Virus record (IMG/VR): IMGVR_UViG_3300030101_003070
Span: 1-33,384 of that record
Direction: 5' to 3' (one strand)
From: a virus
Length of the DNA: 33,384 nt
This document shows, piece after piece, positions 15,606 to 24,295 of the stretch (position 1 is the stretch's first letter; each line of letters begins with the position of its first letter). The notes below the pieces were generated by a model. The model made no database searches and was not told the DNA's origin. It saw only the letters and a list, made by a program, of their open reading frames with translations. The position numbers and the translations under genes are program-made.

Positions 15606-15826
15606 ATATTTATTTTAAAGCACAATCATGGTGTCTAAGTAAAGGATTAAAAATATATATAGTACCGATTAAGAACACTAAAAAGTGTTTTATTGAGATT
15701 GATAATAATGGTAAAATCCAAAAATCTGCTAAAGAATACAAGAATCAAAGGGAAGCAAGTAGTAAAATATGGGATTTATATAAGCATATATATGATAAAA
15801 ACCACCTAAATAATAAAAAAAAGTAA
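15602..15826 (+). CDS. Small basic protein of unknown function
   Basis: 74 aa, last gene of the replication operon, coupled by an ATGA overlap. It begins MNIYFKAQSWCLSKGLKIYI, contains strand-like segments (KCFIEIDNNGKIQKSAKEY) and ends with a Lys/Asn tail. No family recognised. The strong promoter at 15835 starts 9 nt after its stop. Confidence 0.65.
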   Translation: MNIYFKAQSWCLSKGLKIYIVPIKNTKKCFIEIDNNGKIQKSAKEYKNQREASSKIWDLYKHIYDKNHLNNKKK

Positions 15827-15834
15827 AATATTTT

Positions 15835-15864
15835 TTGTTATTTAAAAAATTCTTTTTATATTTG
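15835..15864 (+). promoter_or_regulatory. Strong Bacteroidota-type promoter before the 15892 gene
   Basis: TTG (15835-15837), 19-nt spacer, TATATTTG (15857-15864): an exact TTG-N19-TAnnTTTG promoter. The spacer differs from that of the structured-RNA promoter at 23138 by one base in 19. It removes the upstream part of a longer possible reading frame, fixing the start at 15892. Confidence 0.88.
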
Positions 15865-16470: not shown

Positions 16471-16532
16471 AAGGAGTTTGATAAGAAATAGGAGTCAAAA
16501 GACACACTAACTTATCATTCTCCTTTTTTTTT
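16471..16532 (+). terminator. Intrinsic terminator before the terminase operon
   Basis: AAGGAG (16471-16476) pairs with CTCCTT (16520-16525), and after a two-base T/T mismatch TGATAAG (16479-16485) pairs with CTTATCA (16511-16517). A small GTC-AAAA-GAC hairpin sits in the loop. Nine T residues follow (16524-16532). Confidence 0.85.
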
Positions 16533-16535
16533 GTT

Positions 16536-16547: not shown

Positions 16548-16904
16548 ATGAAAACCGACAAATCCGACACTTTAAGAAAAAAGTTAATTTCTGAGTTAGA
16601 AAAAAATAGAGGTTTGATTAGTATATCTTGTAAAAAAGTTGGTGTACATAGGTCAACTTATTATGATTGGTATAACAAATTCCCTGAATTTAAAAAGGCA
16701 GCTGATGAGGTCATTGAATTGACTATTGATAATGTTGAAAGTAAATTACATGAAAACATAGATAAGAATTGTAAGGATAGTATTAAATATTTTTTATCAT
16801 GTAAAGGTAAACATAGAGGTTATGTACAAAGGCAAGAAATCAAACATGATGTCGATACACAAAGCAAACTTATTGAATGGAAGCCAGCAATAGAAAAAGA
16901 ATAG
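16548..16904 (+). CDS. terS: Terminase small subunit
   Basis: 118 aa. The N-terminal half has a helix-turn-helix of the kind in small terminases: LRKKLISELEKNRGLISISC, KKVGVHRSTYYDWYNKFPEF. The middle carries the helix KKAADEVIELTIDNVESKLH used for ring assembly in the family. A C-terminal polar tail (EWKPAIEKE) follows. It overlaps the large subunit start by 28 nt. It should recognise the packaging site and hand DNA to TerL. Confidence 0.85.
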   Translation: MKTDKSDTLRKKLISELEKNRGLISISCKKVGVHRSTYYDWYNKFPEFKKAADEVIELTIDNVESKLHENIDKNCKDSIKYFLSCKGKHRGYVQRQEIKHDVDTQSKLIEWKPAIEKE

Positions 16905-18055
16905 AACAATTTTGCAATAGACAATTCTACGAAGCATATCATTCAAAGGCCAGATTAAAAATATTTCAGGGGGGTAGTCGTAGTGGCAAAACATATTCCT
17001 TAATGCAATATTGTTTATACTTAATTACAACAAGTGAACAACCATTAACAATAAGCATAATTAGAAAAACCCTACCAGCATTAAAAAGGTCTGTTCTAAG
17101 GGACTTTCTAAACATATCTAAGGACATTGGTTTGTATTGGGATGGTGTGTTTAATAAATCAGAAAACACATTTACATACAATGGCCATACATTAGAATTT
17201 TTTAGTGCTGATGATTCACAAAAGATTAGGGGTTCAGCTAGGGACATAGCATGGCTTAATGAGGGCAATGAATTATTGTTAGAGGAATACAGGCAAATAG
17301 CAATGCGAACAAGGCAAAACATTATGATTGATTTTAACCCATCAGACCCAGTGCATTGGATTTATGATTTATGTGATAGAGATGATGCAGAATTATATAC
17401 ATCAACATATAAAGACAATAGATTTTTACCAAAAGAATTAATATTAGAAATAGAACGATTGAGAGATAGAGACCCCGAATATTGGCGTGTGTATGGTGAA
17501 GGTCAAAGGGCAGTATTTAGTGAAAGACAAATATTTAGAAATTGGAATTACATACCATATAAAGATTTTCCAGAATTTGATGATTATGTGATTGGCATTG
17601 ATTTCGGATTTTCTATGGACAATCTTGGTGTTGTAAAAGTTGCAAAACAAAATGATAAATTATTTGTTCATGAATTGTGTTATAGTAAAGGCATGACTAA
17701 CAGAGACATTGCAAAATTTTTAAAAGAAAAAAAATTAGATAATATAATTTGTTATTGTGATAGTGCCGAACCAAAATCAATAGAAGAATTAAAACAAATG
17801 AATATATTAGCCAAACCAGCAATTAAAGGCCAAGGGTCAATTAACGCTGGTATATCATTGCTAAAAGAGTTTGACATTATATGTTCATTAGAATCTAAAA
17901 ACCTACAAAAAGAACAACAAAGCTATCTATGGGAAGAACTTAAGGATGGCACAATTATTAATAAACCTGTTGATAAAAACAATCACTTAATGGATGCACT
18001 TAGATATGCGACTTATTCTAGATATAAAAATAGATACGATTTTTTTGTTGTATAA
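16877..18055 (+). CDS. terL: Terminase large subunit (Terminase_3 type)
   Basis: 392 aa. ATPase: Walker A GGSRSGKT (32-39), Walker B with catalytic Glu IAWLNEGNE (124-132) and a coupling-like MIDFNPSDP (150-158). RNase H-like nuclease: GIDFGF (D242), CYCDSAEP (D295) and NHLMDALRYA (D373), the three metal-binding aspartates. It drives DNA into the prohead and cuts genome ends. The ATG at 16877 lies inside the small-subunit gene, a normal arrangement. A complete, intact gene. Confidence 0.96.
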   Translation: MEASNRKRIEQFCNRQFYEAYHSKARLKIFQGGSRSGKTYSLMQYCLYLITTSEQPLTISIIRKTLPALKRSVLRDFLNISKDIGLYWDGVFNKSENTFTYNGHTLEFFSADDSQKIRGSARDIAWLNEGNELLLEEYRQIAMRTRQNIMIDFNPSDPVHWIYDLCDRDDAELYTSTYKDNRFLPKELILEIERLRDRDPEYWRVYGEGQRAVFSERQIFRNWNYIPYKDFPEFDDYVIGIDFGFSMDNLGVVKVAKQNDKLFVHELCYSKGMTNRDIAKFLKEKKLDNIICYCDSAEPKSIEELKQMNILAKPAIKGQGSINAGISLLKEFDIICSLESKNLQKEQQSYLWEELKDGTIINKPVDKNNHLMDALRYATYSRYKNRYDFFVV

Positions 18056-18100: not shown

Positions 18101-20347
18101 ATGGCATCATTCTTTGACAGATTAAAAAATCTGATAGTAAAAAACACACAACAAACTGCGAAAGAGTACAACCGAGCAATATATAATTATTTAGGTGCAA
18201 GTGTAATATATAACACTGAAAATGATGAAAATTATATAAATGAGGGTTATAGAAAAAATGCAACAGTTTATTCTATTATCAATCTTATTAGCAAATGTGC
18301 ATCTGCGGTTCCAATAAATGTATTTAAAAAAGTTAATGATGCTGAACTAAAAAGATATAAAGCCATGACCAGTGGTTTGATTGATGGCACAATAATACAT
18401 AAATCCAACATGATTAAAAAACATGCATTGGTTGAATTAGAACACACCGACTTAGATATGCTATTAGAACGACCAAATCCAGCACAATCGTATGCATCTT
18501 GGATTAGTGAATTAGTTGCATTCGGTAAATTAACTGGTAACAGATATATTTATGGCATAGGTCCTGACACTGGTGATAACATAGGTAAATATAAAGAGTT
18601 GTATGTTATGCCATCACAAATTATGGAAGTTATTAGTGGCGGTATAATGGAACCTGTTAAAGAATACATTGTTGAATATAATGGACAATTTAAAATACCT
18701 GCGGACCAAATATGCCATATAAAAGATTTTAACCCATTTTTTGATGGCACTGGTTCACATCTATATGGTCAATCACCATTGAAAGCTGGGTTTAGGGCAA
18801 TGACAACAAATAATGAAGCGGCACAAACAGGTGTTAAATATTTACAAAATCAAATGGCTAGAGGTGTATTGATGTCGGATGAGGGTGATTTAAATGAAGT
18901 ACAAGCACAACAATTAAAAGATAAATTTAGAAATACATATCAATCAAGTAATAATGCTGGTGATGTGATAATAACACCAAAAAAATTATCATGGGTAAAC
19001 TTTGGATTGTCCGCATCAGACCTATCATTGATAGAACAATACAATGCATCAATAAAAGATTTATGTAATATCTTTAATGTGCCAGTGCAACTATTGAACA
19101 ATACTGATTCTAGCACTTATAACAATCAAAAGGAAGCCAAAAAAGCATTGTATCAAAACGCTGTAATTCCTGAGCTTATTAAAATTAGAGATGAATTGAA
19201 TAGATGGTTAACACCTAAATTTGGTGATGACTTATTTATTGATTTTGATTTTACTGTAATACCTGAATTGCAAGAAGAGATGGACAAAGTTGTAGCACAA
19301 ATGTCAAGTTCATGGTGGTTGACACCAAATGAAAAGAGGGCCGCAATGTCATATGCTGAAGAAAAAAATGATGCATTAAATGATTACTTTGTTCCTGTTA
19401 ATTTACTACCTATTAATGGTAGTGATGTAGATATGCCTGAACCAAACCCAACTGATGATAAGTCATTTTATAAAATTCTAAATAAAGAAAAGATTCCAGC
19501 ATTTGTTGATGCATATACAACCGAACAAGAAGCTATTGATAGGGCAAGAGAGATGGGTTGGGATGGTCAAGGTGAGGGAAGCCACACACATACTTATGAT
19601 GGTGAAACAATATACATGCCTTTTGAAACACATGAGGAATATGAAGAAGCATTACAAAATGACAAATATCATTATGGCAAACCACATGATGAGGATGATG
19701 AAAAACAAGTTTCAGCCAAAATAGAAAAGGCACTTAAAAAAAAAGTTGAAGACCATAATGCAAGTGTAAGTGCCGCATCTAAGAAAACAAACCTTAGAAC
19801 ATTAAAAGCGGTATTTAAAAGGGGTGTTGGTGCATATAATACAAACCCACAAAGTGTTAGACCTAATGTTAGAAGTGCTGACCAATGGGCATTAGCAAGG
19901 GTTAATTCTTTTCTTTATGCATTAAAGAATGGTAAATTTAGAAGTGGAAAACATGATACTGATTTATTACCAAGTGGTCATCCAATGTCATCAAAAAAAG
20001 AACAGAAACAAGAAAGTTATGATGACTACCCACAAACAGCAACCAACAATGCAAAGCGTGTAAAAAATTGGATTGACAAATATGGTCGTAATGAAGTAAG
20101 GGGAATGACCGAGGTGGGTTTAGCCAGAATGAATCAACTGATTGCTAGAGAAGCATTGTCATTATCAACATTGAAAAGGACTTTTAGTTTTTTATCTAGA
20201 ACTAAAGGTGGTGGTTATAATAAGATTGACCCTAAGTTTAGTGAGACACCATGGAAGGATAAAGGTTATGTAGCATATTTAGGTTGGGGTGGTGAAGCCA
20301 TGTTAAGGTATGCCGATAGAAAACTGAACCAGCTAGACAATGACTAA
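18101..20347 (+). CDS. HK97-type portal protein with long C-terminal extension
   Basis: 748 aa, while HK97-family portals are usually 400-500 aa. Residues about 1-440 are the portal: KNATVYSIINLISKCASAVP, GNRYIYGIGPDTGD, MARGVLMSDEG and FNVPVQLLNNTDSSTYNNQK. The extension has a His-rich SHTHTYDG (about 494), then a conserved-looking domain with RSADQWALARVNSFLYALKN (about 591) followed by HDTDLLPSGHP, and a final WKDKGYVAYLGWGGEAMLRY. The R-x-x-x-x-W-A-x-A-R-V block and GWGG block occur in other phage and giant-virus proteins of unknown role (DUF5824/DUF5872-like by memory). Twelve copies form the head vertex channel. TAATG overlap with the next gene. Confidence 0.9.
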   Translation: MASFFDRLKNLIVKNTQQTAKEYNRAIYNYLGASVIYNTENDENYINEGYRKNATVYSIINLISKCASAVPINVFKKVNDAELKRYKAMTSGLIDGTIIHKSNMIKKHALVELEHTDLDMLLERPNPAQSYASWISELVAFGKLTGNRYIYGIGPDTGDNIGKYKELYVMPSQIMEVISGGIMEPVKEYIVEYNGQFKIPADQICHIKDFNPFFDGTGSHLYGQSPLKAGFRAMTTNNEAAQTGVKYLQNQMARGVLMSDEGDLNEVQAQQLKDKFRNTYQSSNNAGDVIITPKKLSWVNFGLSASDLSLIEQYNASIKDLCNIFNVPVQLLNNTDSSTYNNQKEAKKALYQNAVIPELIKIRDELNRWLTPKFGDDLFIDFDFTVIPELQEEMDKVVAQMSSSWWLTPNEKRAAMSYAEEKNDALNDYFVPVNLLPINGSDVDMPEPNPTDDKSFYKILNKEKIPAFVDAYTTEQEAIDRAREMGWDGQGEGSHTHTYDGETIYMPFETHEEYEEALQNDKYHYGKPHDEDDEKQVSAKIEKALKKKVEDHNASVSAASKKTNLRTLKAVFKRGVGAYNTNPQSVRPNVRSADQWALARVNSFLYALKNGKFRSGKHDTDLLPSGHPMSSKKEQKQESYDDYPQTATNNAKRVKNWIDKYGRNEVRGMTEVGLARMNQLIAREALSLSTLKRTFSFLSRTKGGGYNKIDPKFSETPWKDKGYVAYLGWGGEAMLRYADRKLNQLDND

Positions 20348-21850: not shown

Positions 21851-23047
21851 ATGGAAGAAAATGTTAAAAATCAGCTTGACCAATTAGGAAACATCATAGA
21901 TGAAAAGATTGAGAAAGCTACTGGACAAGCACTAGAAAGTGCAAATGGTAAGGCAGATGAATCGCTAAAAAGCGAAATCGACAACCTAACCAAAAAATTT
22001 AACGAAAGATTTGATTCATTTGAAGTTGAGAACAAAAAAATGTTTGAAAAAAAGAATGAATCTAAAGATTTCAGAACCAACTTAACAAAAGCAATTAGCG
22101 AAGGTGCAATTGATTCGTTAAGAAAAGGTAATACAAGTGCTGCTGCATTTGAAATCAAAGCTGACATGACAACTGGTGCTGACTTCACAGGTGAGGTTAT
22201 ACCAGCGGATAGAGTGCCAGGATATTTCTTTGACCCTAACAGACCACAAAACATGAGACAAATCATTCCAAATGGTTCTACTCAAAGTGATGTTGTTAGA
22301 TTTGTAAAAGAATCAGGATATTCTAATGGTGCTGCTGCAACGAATGAGGGTAGTACGCTATCACAAACAGATTTCGACATGACAGCATCATCTGTTAATG
22401 TAGAGAAAATTGGAACATATCTCAGAATTTCTGATGAGATGTTAAATGACACTCCACAATTAACAAGCTATATTTCAAATAGAGTACCAGCGAAATTATT
22501 AGAAGTTGAAGATGACCAAATCTTAGGTGGTAATGGTGTTGCACCAAACCTATTAGGTTTATACAACTCAGGTACTAATTTTGATACATCTGCATCAGGT
22601 GCATTCTACCAAGCGGTAAACAATGCAAATGAGTTTGATGTATTAGTTGCTGCAATAAATCAGTTGGCACTATCTAACTACAAACCTAATTTTATCTTAA
22701 TGAATCCAACAGATTTTCATAAGATTCTATTATTAAAAGATAGCCAAAGTAGATACCTTAAAGACCAAGTATATCAAGGATTACAACCATCATTTATGGG
22801 AGTGCCTGTTATTATGAACAACGAGGTAAACGCTGATAGCTATTTAGTTGGTGATTTTGCATCATCTTGCCAATTATGGATTAGAGAAAACCTATCGGTT
22901 TCATTCCATAGAGAAGATGGCACAAACATCAGAGATGGTTTCGTAACTGTTAGATGTCAAGAGAGATTGGCATTAGCTACTTATACACCACTAGGAATTA
23001 TAGATGGTTTATTTAGTACTGGTAAAACTGCATTAGAGACACCATAA
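21851..23047 (+). CDS. HK97-fold major capsid protein with N-terminal scaffold domain
   Basis: 398 aa. Residues about 1-75 are a coiled coil (NQLDQLGNIIDEKIEKATGQ, later LTKKFNERFDSFEVENKKMF), the delta-type scaffold. Mature capsid sequence follows, with VIPADRVPGYFFDPNRP, EKIGTYLRISDEMLNDTPQL, NFILMNPTDFHKILLLKD and FHREDGTNIRDGFVTVRC. Cleavage by the S78 protease likely falls between residue 75 and 105. It is followed by a clear terminator and then by the structured RNA, so capsid transcription ends here. Confidence 0.95.
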   Translation: MEENVKNQLDQLGNIIDEKIEKATGQALESANGKADESLKSEIDNLTKKFNERFDSFEVENKKMFEKKNESKDFRTNLTKAISEGAIDSLRKGNTSAAAFEIKADMTTGADFTGEVIPADRVPGYFFDPNRPQNMRQIIPNGSTQSDVVRFVKESGYSNGAAATNEGSTLSQTDFDMTASSVNVEKIGTYLRISDEMLNDTPQLTSYISNRVPAKLLEVEDDQILGGNGVAPNLLGLYNSGTNFDTSASGAFYQAVNNANEFDVLVAAINQLALSNYKPNFILMNPTDFHKILLLKDSQSRYLKDQVYQGLQPSFMGVPVIMNNEVNADSYLVGDFASSCQLWIRENLSVSFHREDGTNIRDGFVTVRCQERLALATYTPLGIIDGLFSTGKTALETP

Positions 23048-23075
23048 TCGGTTGATTTAATTAAGTTTTAAATGT

Positions 23076-23104
23076 AAAGAGGGGTGTTTTTCACCCCTTT
23101 TTTT
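23076..23104 (+). terminator. Intrinsic terminator after the major capsid gene
   Basis: AGGGGTG (23080-23086), TTTTT loop, CACCCCT (23092-23098) with an A/T extension outside and a run of seven T. It insulates the structured-RNA promoter from head-gene transcription. Confidence 0.95.
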
Positions 23105-23137
23105 ATGGGGTAAATTAAAATAAATGTAAAATATATT

Positions 23138-23167
23138 TTGTTATTTAAAAAATTCTTTATATGTTTG
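23138..23167 (+). promoter_or_regulatory. Strong Bacteroidota-type promoter of the structured RNA
   Basis: TTG (23138-23140), 19-nt spacer, TATGTTTG (23160-23167). Spacer and upstream bases are nearly identical to the 15835 promoter (18 of 19 spacer positions). Start of transcription is expected at about 23172. No coding sequence follows for 900 nt, so it most likely drives an RNA gene. Confidence 0.9.
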
Positions 23168-23665
23168 TAGTGTAATTGATTAATAATTACATACGTTCAT
23201 TAACATATTGAAAAACAATTTAGGAAAACAGGAATGCTATTTGTCTGTAAAAAGACAAGGCATAAGGAGGGTAACTATTCCAGAATTTTGAGGGTAAAAC
23301 ATAAAAGTAGATAAAACTATTAATAGTGTGTTTGAGAGTAAATAACTTGGTAAGGTTCTGTTACTGATATAAGTATTGTATTGTTCTAGCTTAAAAAGTG
23401 TGATAGTGGACTTAAAATCCATCTGGTAGGCATACTGGGTACTTTACGAATTGAAACTGACTGTGATTGCTGGTGTTGAAATTACACCTTAAAAGATTGA
23501 GATATAACCACATTGACACAAAAGCCGAGAGGTAATATTAGTGGGAGTTTAAAATTGAGGGTTGAAACCTCATAGTAATAATAAAGATGTTCCTGAAAAA
23601 TGGGCGGTCAAAATCTTATTATTGGACTGGAAAATCAGAGGCTACTAAATTGTTTTTTTTAAAAT

Positions 23666-23940
23666 ATTAAACGAGTAGTTGTGCCTTCATACTAAAAGCT
23701 AAGTGCTGAAGGTGGTGTGAGAACCTTAAAGTGTTTATTCGTTGGTGAGGGGTTGCAAACCCAATATTCTGACAGAACCACTATCCAATACGAACCCCAT
23801 TCTATTTTCCGAGTGGGGTTTGACAATAAAGAATGTCGTTAGCGAGGGGGACATTCCTAACAGGCGTAAATGGGGACATTTACATATCCACCTGAATAAA
23901 AAACCTTATAAGTGGTCTAGGGGTCTAGATTAAACGAGTA
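23666..23940 (+). repeat. 12-nt direct repeat ATTAAACGAGTA within the structured RNA
   Basis: ATTAAACGAGTA occurs at 23666-23677 and 23929-23940. Its AACGAGTA part is complementary to TATTCGTT at 23736-23743, so both copies could compete for one partner, allowing alternative folds. Confidence 0.75.
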
Positions 23941-23969
23941 ATCAACTCTACATTTGTAAGGTTTTTTTT
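23898..23969 (+). terminator. Branched terminator domain of the structured RNA
   Basis: An outer stem of up to 17 bp (23898-23914 with 23951-23967, two G-U pairs) encloses two hairpins, TCTAG-GGGT-CTAGA (23916-23929) and GAGT-AATCA-ACTC (23936-23948). The 3' arm runs into TTTTTTTT. It serves as both a structural 3' domain and an intrinsic terminator. Confidence 0.85.
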
Positions 23970-24012
23970 ATATCTGTAAACTAAAAAAATATTAATTATT
24001 TTAAAATTTATT

Positions 24013-24042
24013 TTGGTATTAAAAAAAAAGTTTATATATTAG
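24013..24042 (+). promoter_or_regulatory. Promoter of the 24068 gene
   Basis: TTG (24013-24015), 19-nt spacer, TATATTAG (24035-24042), with the same -7 box as the 9666 promoter. ATG at 24068 follows 26 nt later. Confidence 0.75.
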
Positions 24043-24067
24043 CCATATAAACAAACAAAATAAAATT

Positions 24068-24295
24068 ATGATAGAAACTACACACATACAGAATTTTGAA
24101 TTTTATCACACAGACATTGTAGTTGAATATAAATTCATAGAATCAGAACTGGATTATTTTTCTGGCACTGGACAAAAAGAAGATGTTGAAATTAATGCAG
24201 TGTATGTTGACAATGTTGACATTACTAGATTAATGGAAGTTCATTCTAATGAACTTGAAAGAATAGTATTAGATAATCATTTAGGCAATTTATAA
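24068..24295 (+). CDS. Small acidic phage protein of unknown function
   Basis: 75 aa, first gene behind its own promoter. The ending VEINAVYVDNVDITRLMEVH...ELERIVLDNHLGNL follows the pattern of small marine-phage proteins with an E-I-x-x-V-x-V-x-x-x-D-I-T core. The start MIETTHIQNFEFYHTDIVVE is beta-rich. Acidic and soluble. Function unknown. Confidence 0.65.
   Translation: MIETTHIQNFEFYHTDIVVEYKFIESELDYFSGTGQKEDVEINAVYVDNVDITRLMEVHSNELERIVLDNHLGNL

Follow-up and report, generated by a model that had tools for sequence, protein, structure and literature searches.

The window analysed here, by which we mean the whole 33,384-base stretch of an IMG/VR virus record, carries an HK97-type head module in which a Mu-F-like protein and an S78 protease are encoded together with the following genes:

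16877-18055, terminase
18101-20347, portal
21851-23047, capsid gene, with its own terminator at the gene end

The gap between listed open reading frames that follows the capsid gene (23048-24067; 1020 nt) exceeds every other gap of the window by a wide margin, and the gene after it begins at 24068, preceded by a promoter-like sequence of its own. Among annotated terminases, the closest (about 40% identity) come from phages of Bacteroides and Phocaeicola, and the promoters of the window are of Bacteroidota type; the phage probably infects a Bacteroidota bacterium. A sibling contig (L001), whose capsid protein is 97% identical, lacks the RNA described below and has a small gene in its place. Another contig (L164, PBPJ01000031.1), with a capsid protein of 75% identity, is filed under a Woesearchaeota archaeon MAG and is most likely a mis-binned Bacteroidota phage.

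A preliminary description of this DNA had placed in the gap an independent structured RNA of about 800 nt, as a single unit and a candidate giant RNA class. The features that we assign to it, all on the plus strand, are:

23138-23167, plus strand, Bacteroidota-type promoter, TTG (23138-23140)-N19-TATGTTTG (23160-23167), read directly
23172-23190, plus strand, leader hairpin GUAAUU...AAUUAC, common to L018, L024, L019, L029 and L151-L154
23195-23205, plus strand, boxA-like element GTTCATTAACA, between promoter and domains
23211-23660, plus strand, domain A; a 13-bp long-range helix, accompanied by a U8 run, closes it; homologs in L018 and L024
23667-23822, plus strand, domain B, with the GGUGUGAGAACC hairpin region and a CCCC/GGGG hairpin at its end; homologs in L024 and L085, diverged in L148
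23831-23856, plus strand, 5' hairpin P1 of domain C (23831-23970), 7-8 bp in six phages whose sequences differ
23857-23970, plus strand, core of domain C and branched terminator, modelled with 34 bp
23901-23914/23951-23964, plus strand, terminator stem followed by a T run, read directly

The individual elements named at the outset are present on direct reading: the TTG-N19 promoter with TATGTTTG at 23160-23167, the perfect 13-bp helix (23211-23223/23645-23657), the bulged stem near 23577-23623, the hairpin at 23791-23822, the branched terminal domain and the terminator (stem 23901-23914/23951-23964 and T run). Taken together, promoter and terminator delimit a free-standing putative transcription unit at 23160-23970. 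The upstream stretch of the promoter recurs at 15807-15864, ahead of a different gene. A match in Tenacibaculum phage PTm1 was rejected as a relative of the RNA, being similar promoter DNA ahead of a gene.

That the gap holds no credible gene, as had been claimed, is borne out: the longest open reading frames inside it are of 61 and 63 aa, and reading frames are not preserved in the homologs. L019 and L085 share with the window an open frame that spans B and C; in L055 this frame meets a stop after an insertion, and in L148 a stop is introduced by a compensated change in a hairpin of domain C, so that it is the pairing, not the coding, that is preserved. Minus-strand frames in domain A are disrupted by 4-nt and single-base indels.

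Folding statistics were less conclusive. The minimum free energy of the whole region is -197.8 against -174.6 +/- 6.7 in 120 shuffles (z -3.5), and a perfect inverted repeat of at least 13 bp occurs in 0.9% of 1000 dinucleotide shuffles. However, 200-nt segments starting at 23201-23501, in domain A, fold in an ordinary manner (z -0.12 to +0.88), only those at 23801 (z -3.25) and 23901 (z -3.98) stand out, and a segment within the capsid gene reaches z -5.2. Folding energy alone is therefore insufficient for the claim, made beforehand, that the density of stems exceeds chance, and we regard comparison between phages as the decisive evidence for an RNA.

We gathered 80 capsid-gene loci, and the related RNAs found in these and other positions are arranged as follows:

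L018, capsid slot: A alone, with a small gene directly after it
L024, capsid slot: A and B, with a terminator at the end of B
L019/L032 and L029, capsid slot: A', a different domain of about 340 nt, then C
L055/L074, capsid slot: C alone, right after the promoter
L085, outside the capsid slot: a short domain D, then B and C
L148, after the terminase gene: A'', B'' and C, in the order of the window
L151, L154, L155, L156 and L157: A' alone, after an apparent terminase gene
L153, L158, L161 and L162: A' elsewhere

By this comparison the RNA is best described as a chain of three separable domains, A, B and C, which appear to have been shuffled, dropped and swapped among related phages; the single 800-nt unit first proposed thus gives way to a modular plan. 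The A-B-C order is complete only in the window and in L148, where the first two domains (A'' and B'') have diverged. Joints between domains share short linkers, such as T8AAAATATT, which lies 3' of A in the window and also 3' of A' in L019, and the same kind of gene precedes both the A' of L161 and the D-B-C arrangement of L085. The distance from the RNA to the start of the next gene is only some 15-50 nt in L018, L155, L156 and L161. Hydrophobic peptides some 30-38 residues long (e.g., MKKLLEKIILSDAFV...FTLIF) are encoded in L018, L008, L154 and L161, often just downstream of the RNA; similar peptides were found in slots without an RNA, too.

Domain C is the most conserved of the domains, yet it is absent from L018 and L024. 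Covariance model and pattern matches comprise the window, L019/L032, L029, L055/L074, L085 and L148, the last being the one genuine new member among 45 stretches retrieved with a relaxed pattern; neither C nor the leader was found in the Bacteroides phages with the nearest terminases. In each of the six phages, hairpin P1 has an uninterrupted run of 7-8 pairs, of which the sixth is UA, UG, GC, AU or CG, and since an arm of at least seven pairs is met at only about 6% of random region positions in the same scan, its presence in six of six is well beyond chance. All 34 pairs of the C model are intact in five sequences including L148 (170/170 cells), four of them with two-sided change as against 1.0 expected by shuffling (2/500 shuffles), and when L055 replaces L148 there are six two-sided pairs (0/500 shuffles). 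The core hairpin of L148 has two pairs changed on both sides (GUAAAUG/CAUUUAC to GUAGAUA/UAUCUAC).

The alternative 5' domain A' is a covarying family in its own right. Seventeen of its 62 predicted pairs show two-sided change. In its core 95% of cells pair, and two-sided cells number 23 as against 8.7. The covariation score of this core exceeds that of 500/500 shuffles, while the count of two-sided pairs does not. Within the limits of a comparative approach, C and A' can be taken as established RNA structures. The covariance model of A' gave a weak match at the right place in the A'' of L148 (18.6 bits, E 0.1) and none to domain A of the window. A pattern scan for A' in GTDB genomes found nothing, and when the region and A' were compared with 50,697 phage records by BLASTN, only chance or promoter-level matches emerged. 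A nearly invariant stretch of A' (e.g., L154:5066-5095), AUAGUCAAAAGUACGAYAGCUUAAAUAA, resembles the UAGUC-tag-stop stretch of tmRNA; a tmRNA reading of this UAGUC...GCUUAA stretch was rejected, as the tRNA-like part is absent and ARAGORN finds no tmRNA.

Domain B is likely an RNA structure: by eye, GGU/ACC of the window corresponds to AGU/ACU in L024 and GCU/AGC in L148, and GGG/CCC to GGA/UCC in L085, while the CCCC/GGGG hairpin at its end serves as a terminator sequence in L024. The structural details of domain A are a prediction that the available relatives test weakly. Pattern searches for A returned L018, L024 and unrelated coding DNA and nothing further, so that L018 and L024 are its only close relatives, and the columns of the resulting three-sequence alignment are on average 95% identical. 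In the helices of A, four changes are two-sided as against 1.7 in shuffles (14/500), and seven cells are broken; variation in the 13-bp closing helix is confined to one of its strands. The helices of A listed in the preliminary description, the 13-bp helix included, are thus weakly tested. At 23403-23440, also in A, GUGGA-CUUAAAA-UCCAU followed by CUGGUA-GGCA-UACUGG resembles the anticodon arm and variable arm of a tRNA-Leu(UAA); this candidate was rejected, the loop being CUAAAAA in L018, and is probably a coincidence.

The leader shared by these RNAs hints at a mode of transcription. GTTCATTAACA is one base off GYTCTTTAANA, the boxA consensus of gamma-proteobacteria (PMC5725501), a group of another phylum. 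Variants (GTTCATTGAAA, GCTCATTAACA, GTTCTTTGAAA) stand at the start of RNA units in other loci, and counting distinct slots, with those whose first unit starts with an open reading frame taken as coding, the element is present in 9/9 RNA-bearing and 0/49 protein-coding capsid slots. This count includes three RNA slots with spurious frames of 26-30 codons that were reassigned by hand; the automatic Fisher p beforehand was 4e-5. Two additional capsid slots have neither a boxA-like element nor an early open reading frame. By sequence alone such an element is not rare (two matches in the window against 0.84 expected), and the weight of the assignment is carried by its position and its association with RNA. 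Because the units have U tracts in their interior and are of considerable length yet untranslated, the analogy suggests that they may employ rRNA-style Nus antitermination.

Several further elements were observed. In the post-capsid slot of L002 (6330-6660) and L008, a non-coding stretch of about 330 nt lies behind a boxA-like leader (AGTTCATTGAAATATTG...ACACAGGGAAACAAAACGCCC); it is conserved between both contigs, has no Rfam match, and is probably a further RNA of the modular kind. L054:2174-2450 (also L076) holds two small tandem non-coding units with a boxA-like element in each, the first having a tRNA-like GGUGCAAGUCCGCC arm, for which a match to a tymovirus tRNA-like element is weak (21 bits, below cut-off). 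A small structured element, GGAG..UGAUAAGAAAUAGGAG-UC-AAAA-GA-CACACUAACUUAUCA..CUCC-U9, occurs at 16474-16533 of the window, immediately ahead of the gene preceding the terminase, and at L154:5532-5590, where its inner stem is altered in a compensatory manner (GUC/GAC to GGC/GCC).

Known families do not account for the RNA. Rfam, which includes profiles of GOLLD and ROOL (PMC12286853), gave no family at gathering score, and the matches at E up to 10 were weak and irrelevant, with neither GOLLD nor ROOL among them. Signatures of tmRNA, tRNA, RNase P or group I/II introns, of which tmRNA, RNase P and introns had not been noticed beforehand either, were found by neither ARAGORN nor the Rfam models; ARAGORN reported no tRNA or tmRNA in the 33-kb window and no tRNA in nine related loci. 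Our non-exhaustive search of the literature yielded no earlier account of it. The comparative evidence supports the original proposal of a structured non-coding RNA without an Rfam match that would form an independent, presumably transcribed unit.

We suggest that the locus represents a class of structured phage RNA that is new and modular, akin to GOLLD and ROOL in kind and not a detectable member of either. Sequence comparison shows a non-coding unit equipped with a promoter-like sequence and a terminator sequence. It likewise shows that domains A, B and C fold independently and are gained, lost and exchanged as cassettes in variable slots after capsid, terminase and other genes. On balance we favour, with some reservation, a phage gene whose product is a structured noncoding RNA of exchangeable domains that would act in trans during infection. 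Counting against a trans role is the nearness of the next gene to the RNA in L018, L155, L156 and L161, where a role in cis is possible. Such a role, in which the RNA would control downstream genes as a leader or by antitermination, in the manner of HK022 put or an EAR element, would draw on the boxA-like leader and on the next gene lying within about 50 nt in several relatives; we hold it to be improbable, since in the window a strong terminator ends the RNA and a separate promoter-like sequence precedes the gene at 24068, and since the downstream genes vary between loci.

A string of separately acting small RNAs, A (about 450 nt), B (about 155 nt) and C (about 140 nt), co-transcribed or partly terminated after each domain, with the 800-nt species only a precursor, is a minority view that deserves to be taken seriously. 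Every domain ends in a helix with a U run or in a hairpin, C stands alone after a promoter in L055 and A alone in L018, a plain terminator closes B in L024, and L054 has two boxA-like elements in tandem; however, a boxA-like leader would be expected to carry transcription past the internal U tracts, and the A-B-C order is found again in L148 at another genomic slot. That the RNA is a diverged GOLLD or ROOL, as its size, phage origin and intricate fold might suggest together with a conserved 3' region that GOLLD also has (PMC12286853), is very doubtful given the lack of any Rfam model match at E up to 10, the absence of tRNA genes from the window, the free recombination of domains and the lack of C in L018 and L024. 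Least credible of all is a stretch devoid of functional RNA, be it non-coding filler or a hidden small gene: the ordinary local folding energy of domain A and the presence of short open frames would allow it, but it is opposed by the covariation in C and A', by conservation without a conserved frame and by the conserved leader.

For a trans-acting RNA of exchangeable domains, we propose that the host Nus antitermination complex is loaded at the boxA-like leader, which would let RNA polymerase cross the untranslated domains punctuated by U tracts and stop at the strong terminator at 23964. The folded RNA may then remain intact as a scaffold, in which the conserved core of C (CUAACAGGCGUAAAUGGGGACAUUUAC...UCCACCUGAAUAA) would bind a constant partner, such as a host factor, a phage protein or another copy of the RNA, and the interchangeable 5' domains would provide variable activity, e.g., in competition with hosts or other phages. 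Because close relatives lack the RNA it must be dispensable for head formation, which fits an accessory or competitive role. A bolder extension, to which we give limited credence, is a hitherto undescribed superfamily of modular phage RNAs with a standard boxA leader, interchangeable folded domains as anti-host or anti-competitor cargo and a constant 3' domain for docking to one partner; if true, these would in effect be multi-domain RNA "proteins" with parts shuffled between phages. The recombining domains represent natural swap experiments, in which the part played by each domain can be read from phages that have only C, only A or the full A-B-C. The leader with its boxA-like element offers a simple sequence handle for more long RNA genes in Bacteroidota phages, and has already led to other uncatalogued RNAs in the capsid slot (L002/L008, L054).

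To our knowledge, few classes of large structured RNA are known from bacteria and phages (GOLLD, ROOL, OLE). GOLLD combines a conserved 3' with a variable 5' region, is often found near tRNA islands and forms a homo-oligomeric RNA cage, while ROOL forms a homo-octameric one. The function of these two large phage RNAs is unknown, and in GOLLD the 3' region is the conserved part (PMC12286853). The likeness to both that was proposed at the outset stands as one of kind, and lapses as regards a model match and a tRNA neighbourhood. Like GOLLD, the RNA of the window is encoded by a phage or prophage and measures about 800 nt, and its division into a conserved 3' and a variable 5' part recalls GOLLD in so far as C is the most conserved domain; unlike GOLLD, it has no model match or tRNA island, its domains are interchangeable cassettes, and its 3' domain is absent from some relatives or stands alone in others. 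With ROOL it shares the character of a large structured phage RNA expected to act untranslated, whereas the covariance-model match and the tRNA neighbourhood are missing and the domain plan differs. RNAs of the HK022 put or EAR type are likewise structured phage or bacterial RNAs near a promoter that possibly affect RNA polymerase; the RNA described here, about ten times the length of HK022 put, differs in being closed by its own terminator and in having no fixed downstream gene. The boxA/Nus leaders found in rRNA operons, and before other long RNAs that are not translated, show the same succession of a promoter, GYTCWTTRAMA and a long untranslated structured RNA, whereas the unit of the window is phage-borne, its RNA is not an rRNA, and the consensus compared is from another phylum than the Bacteroidota.
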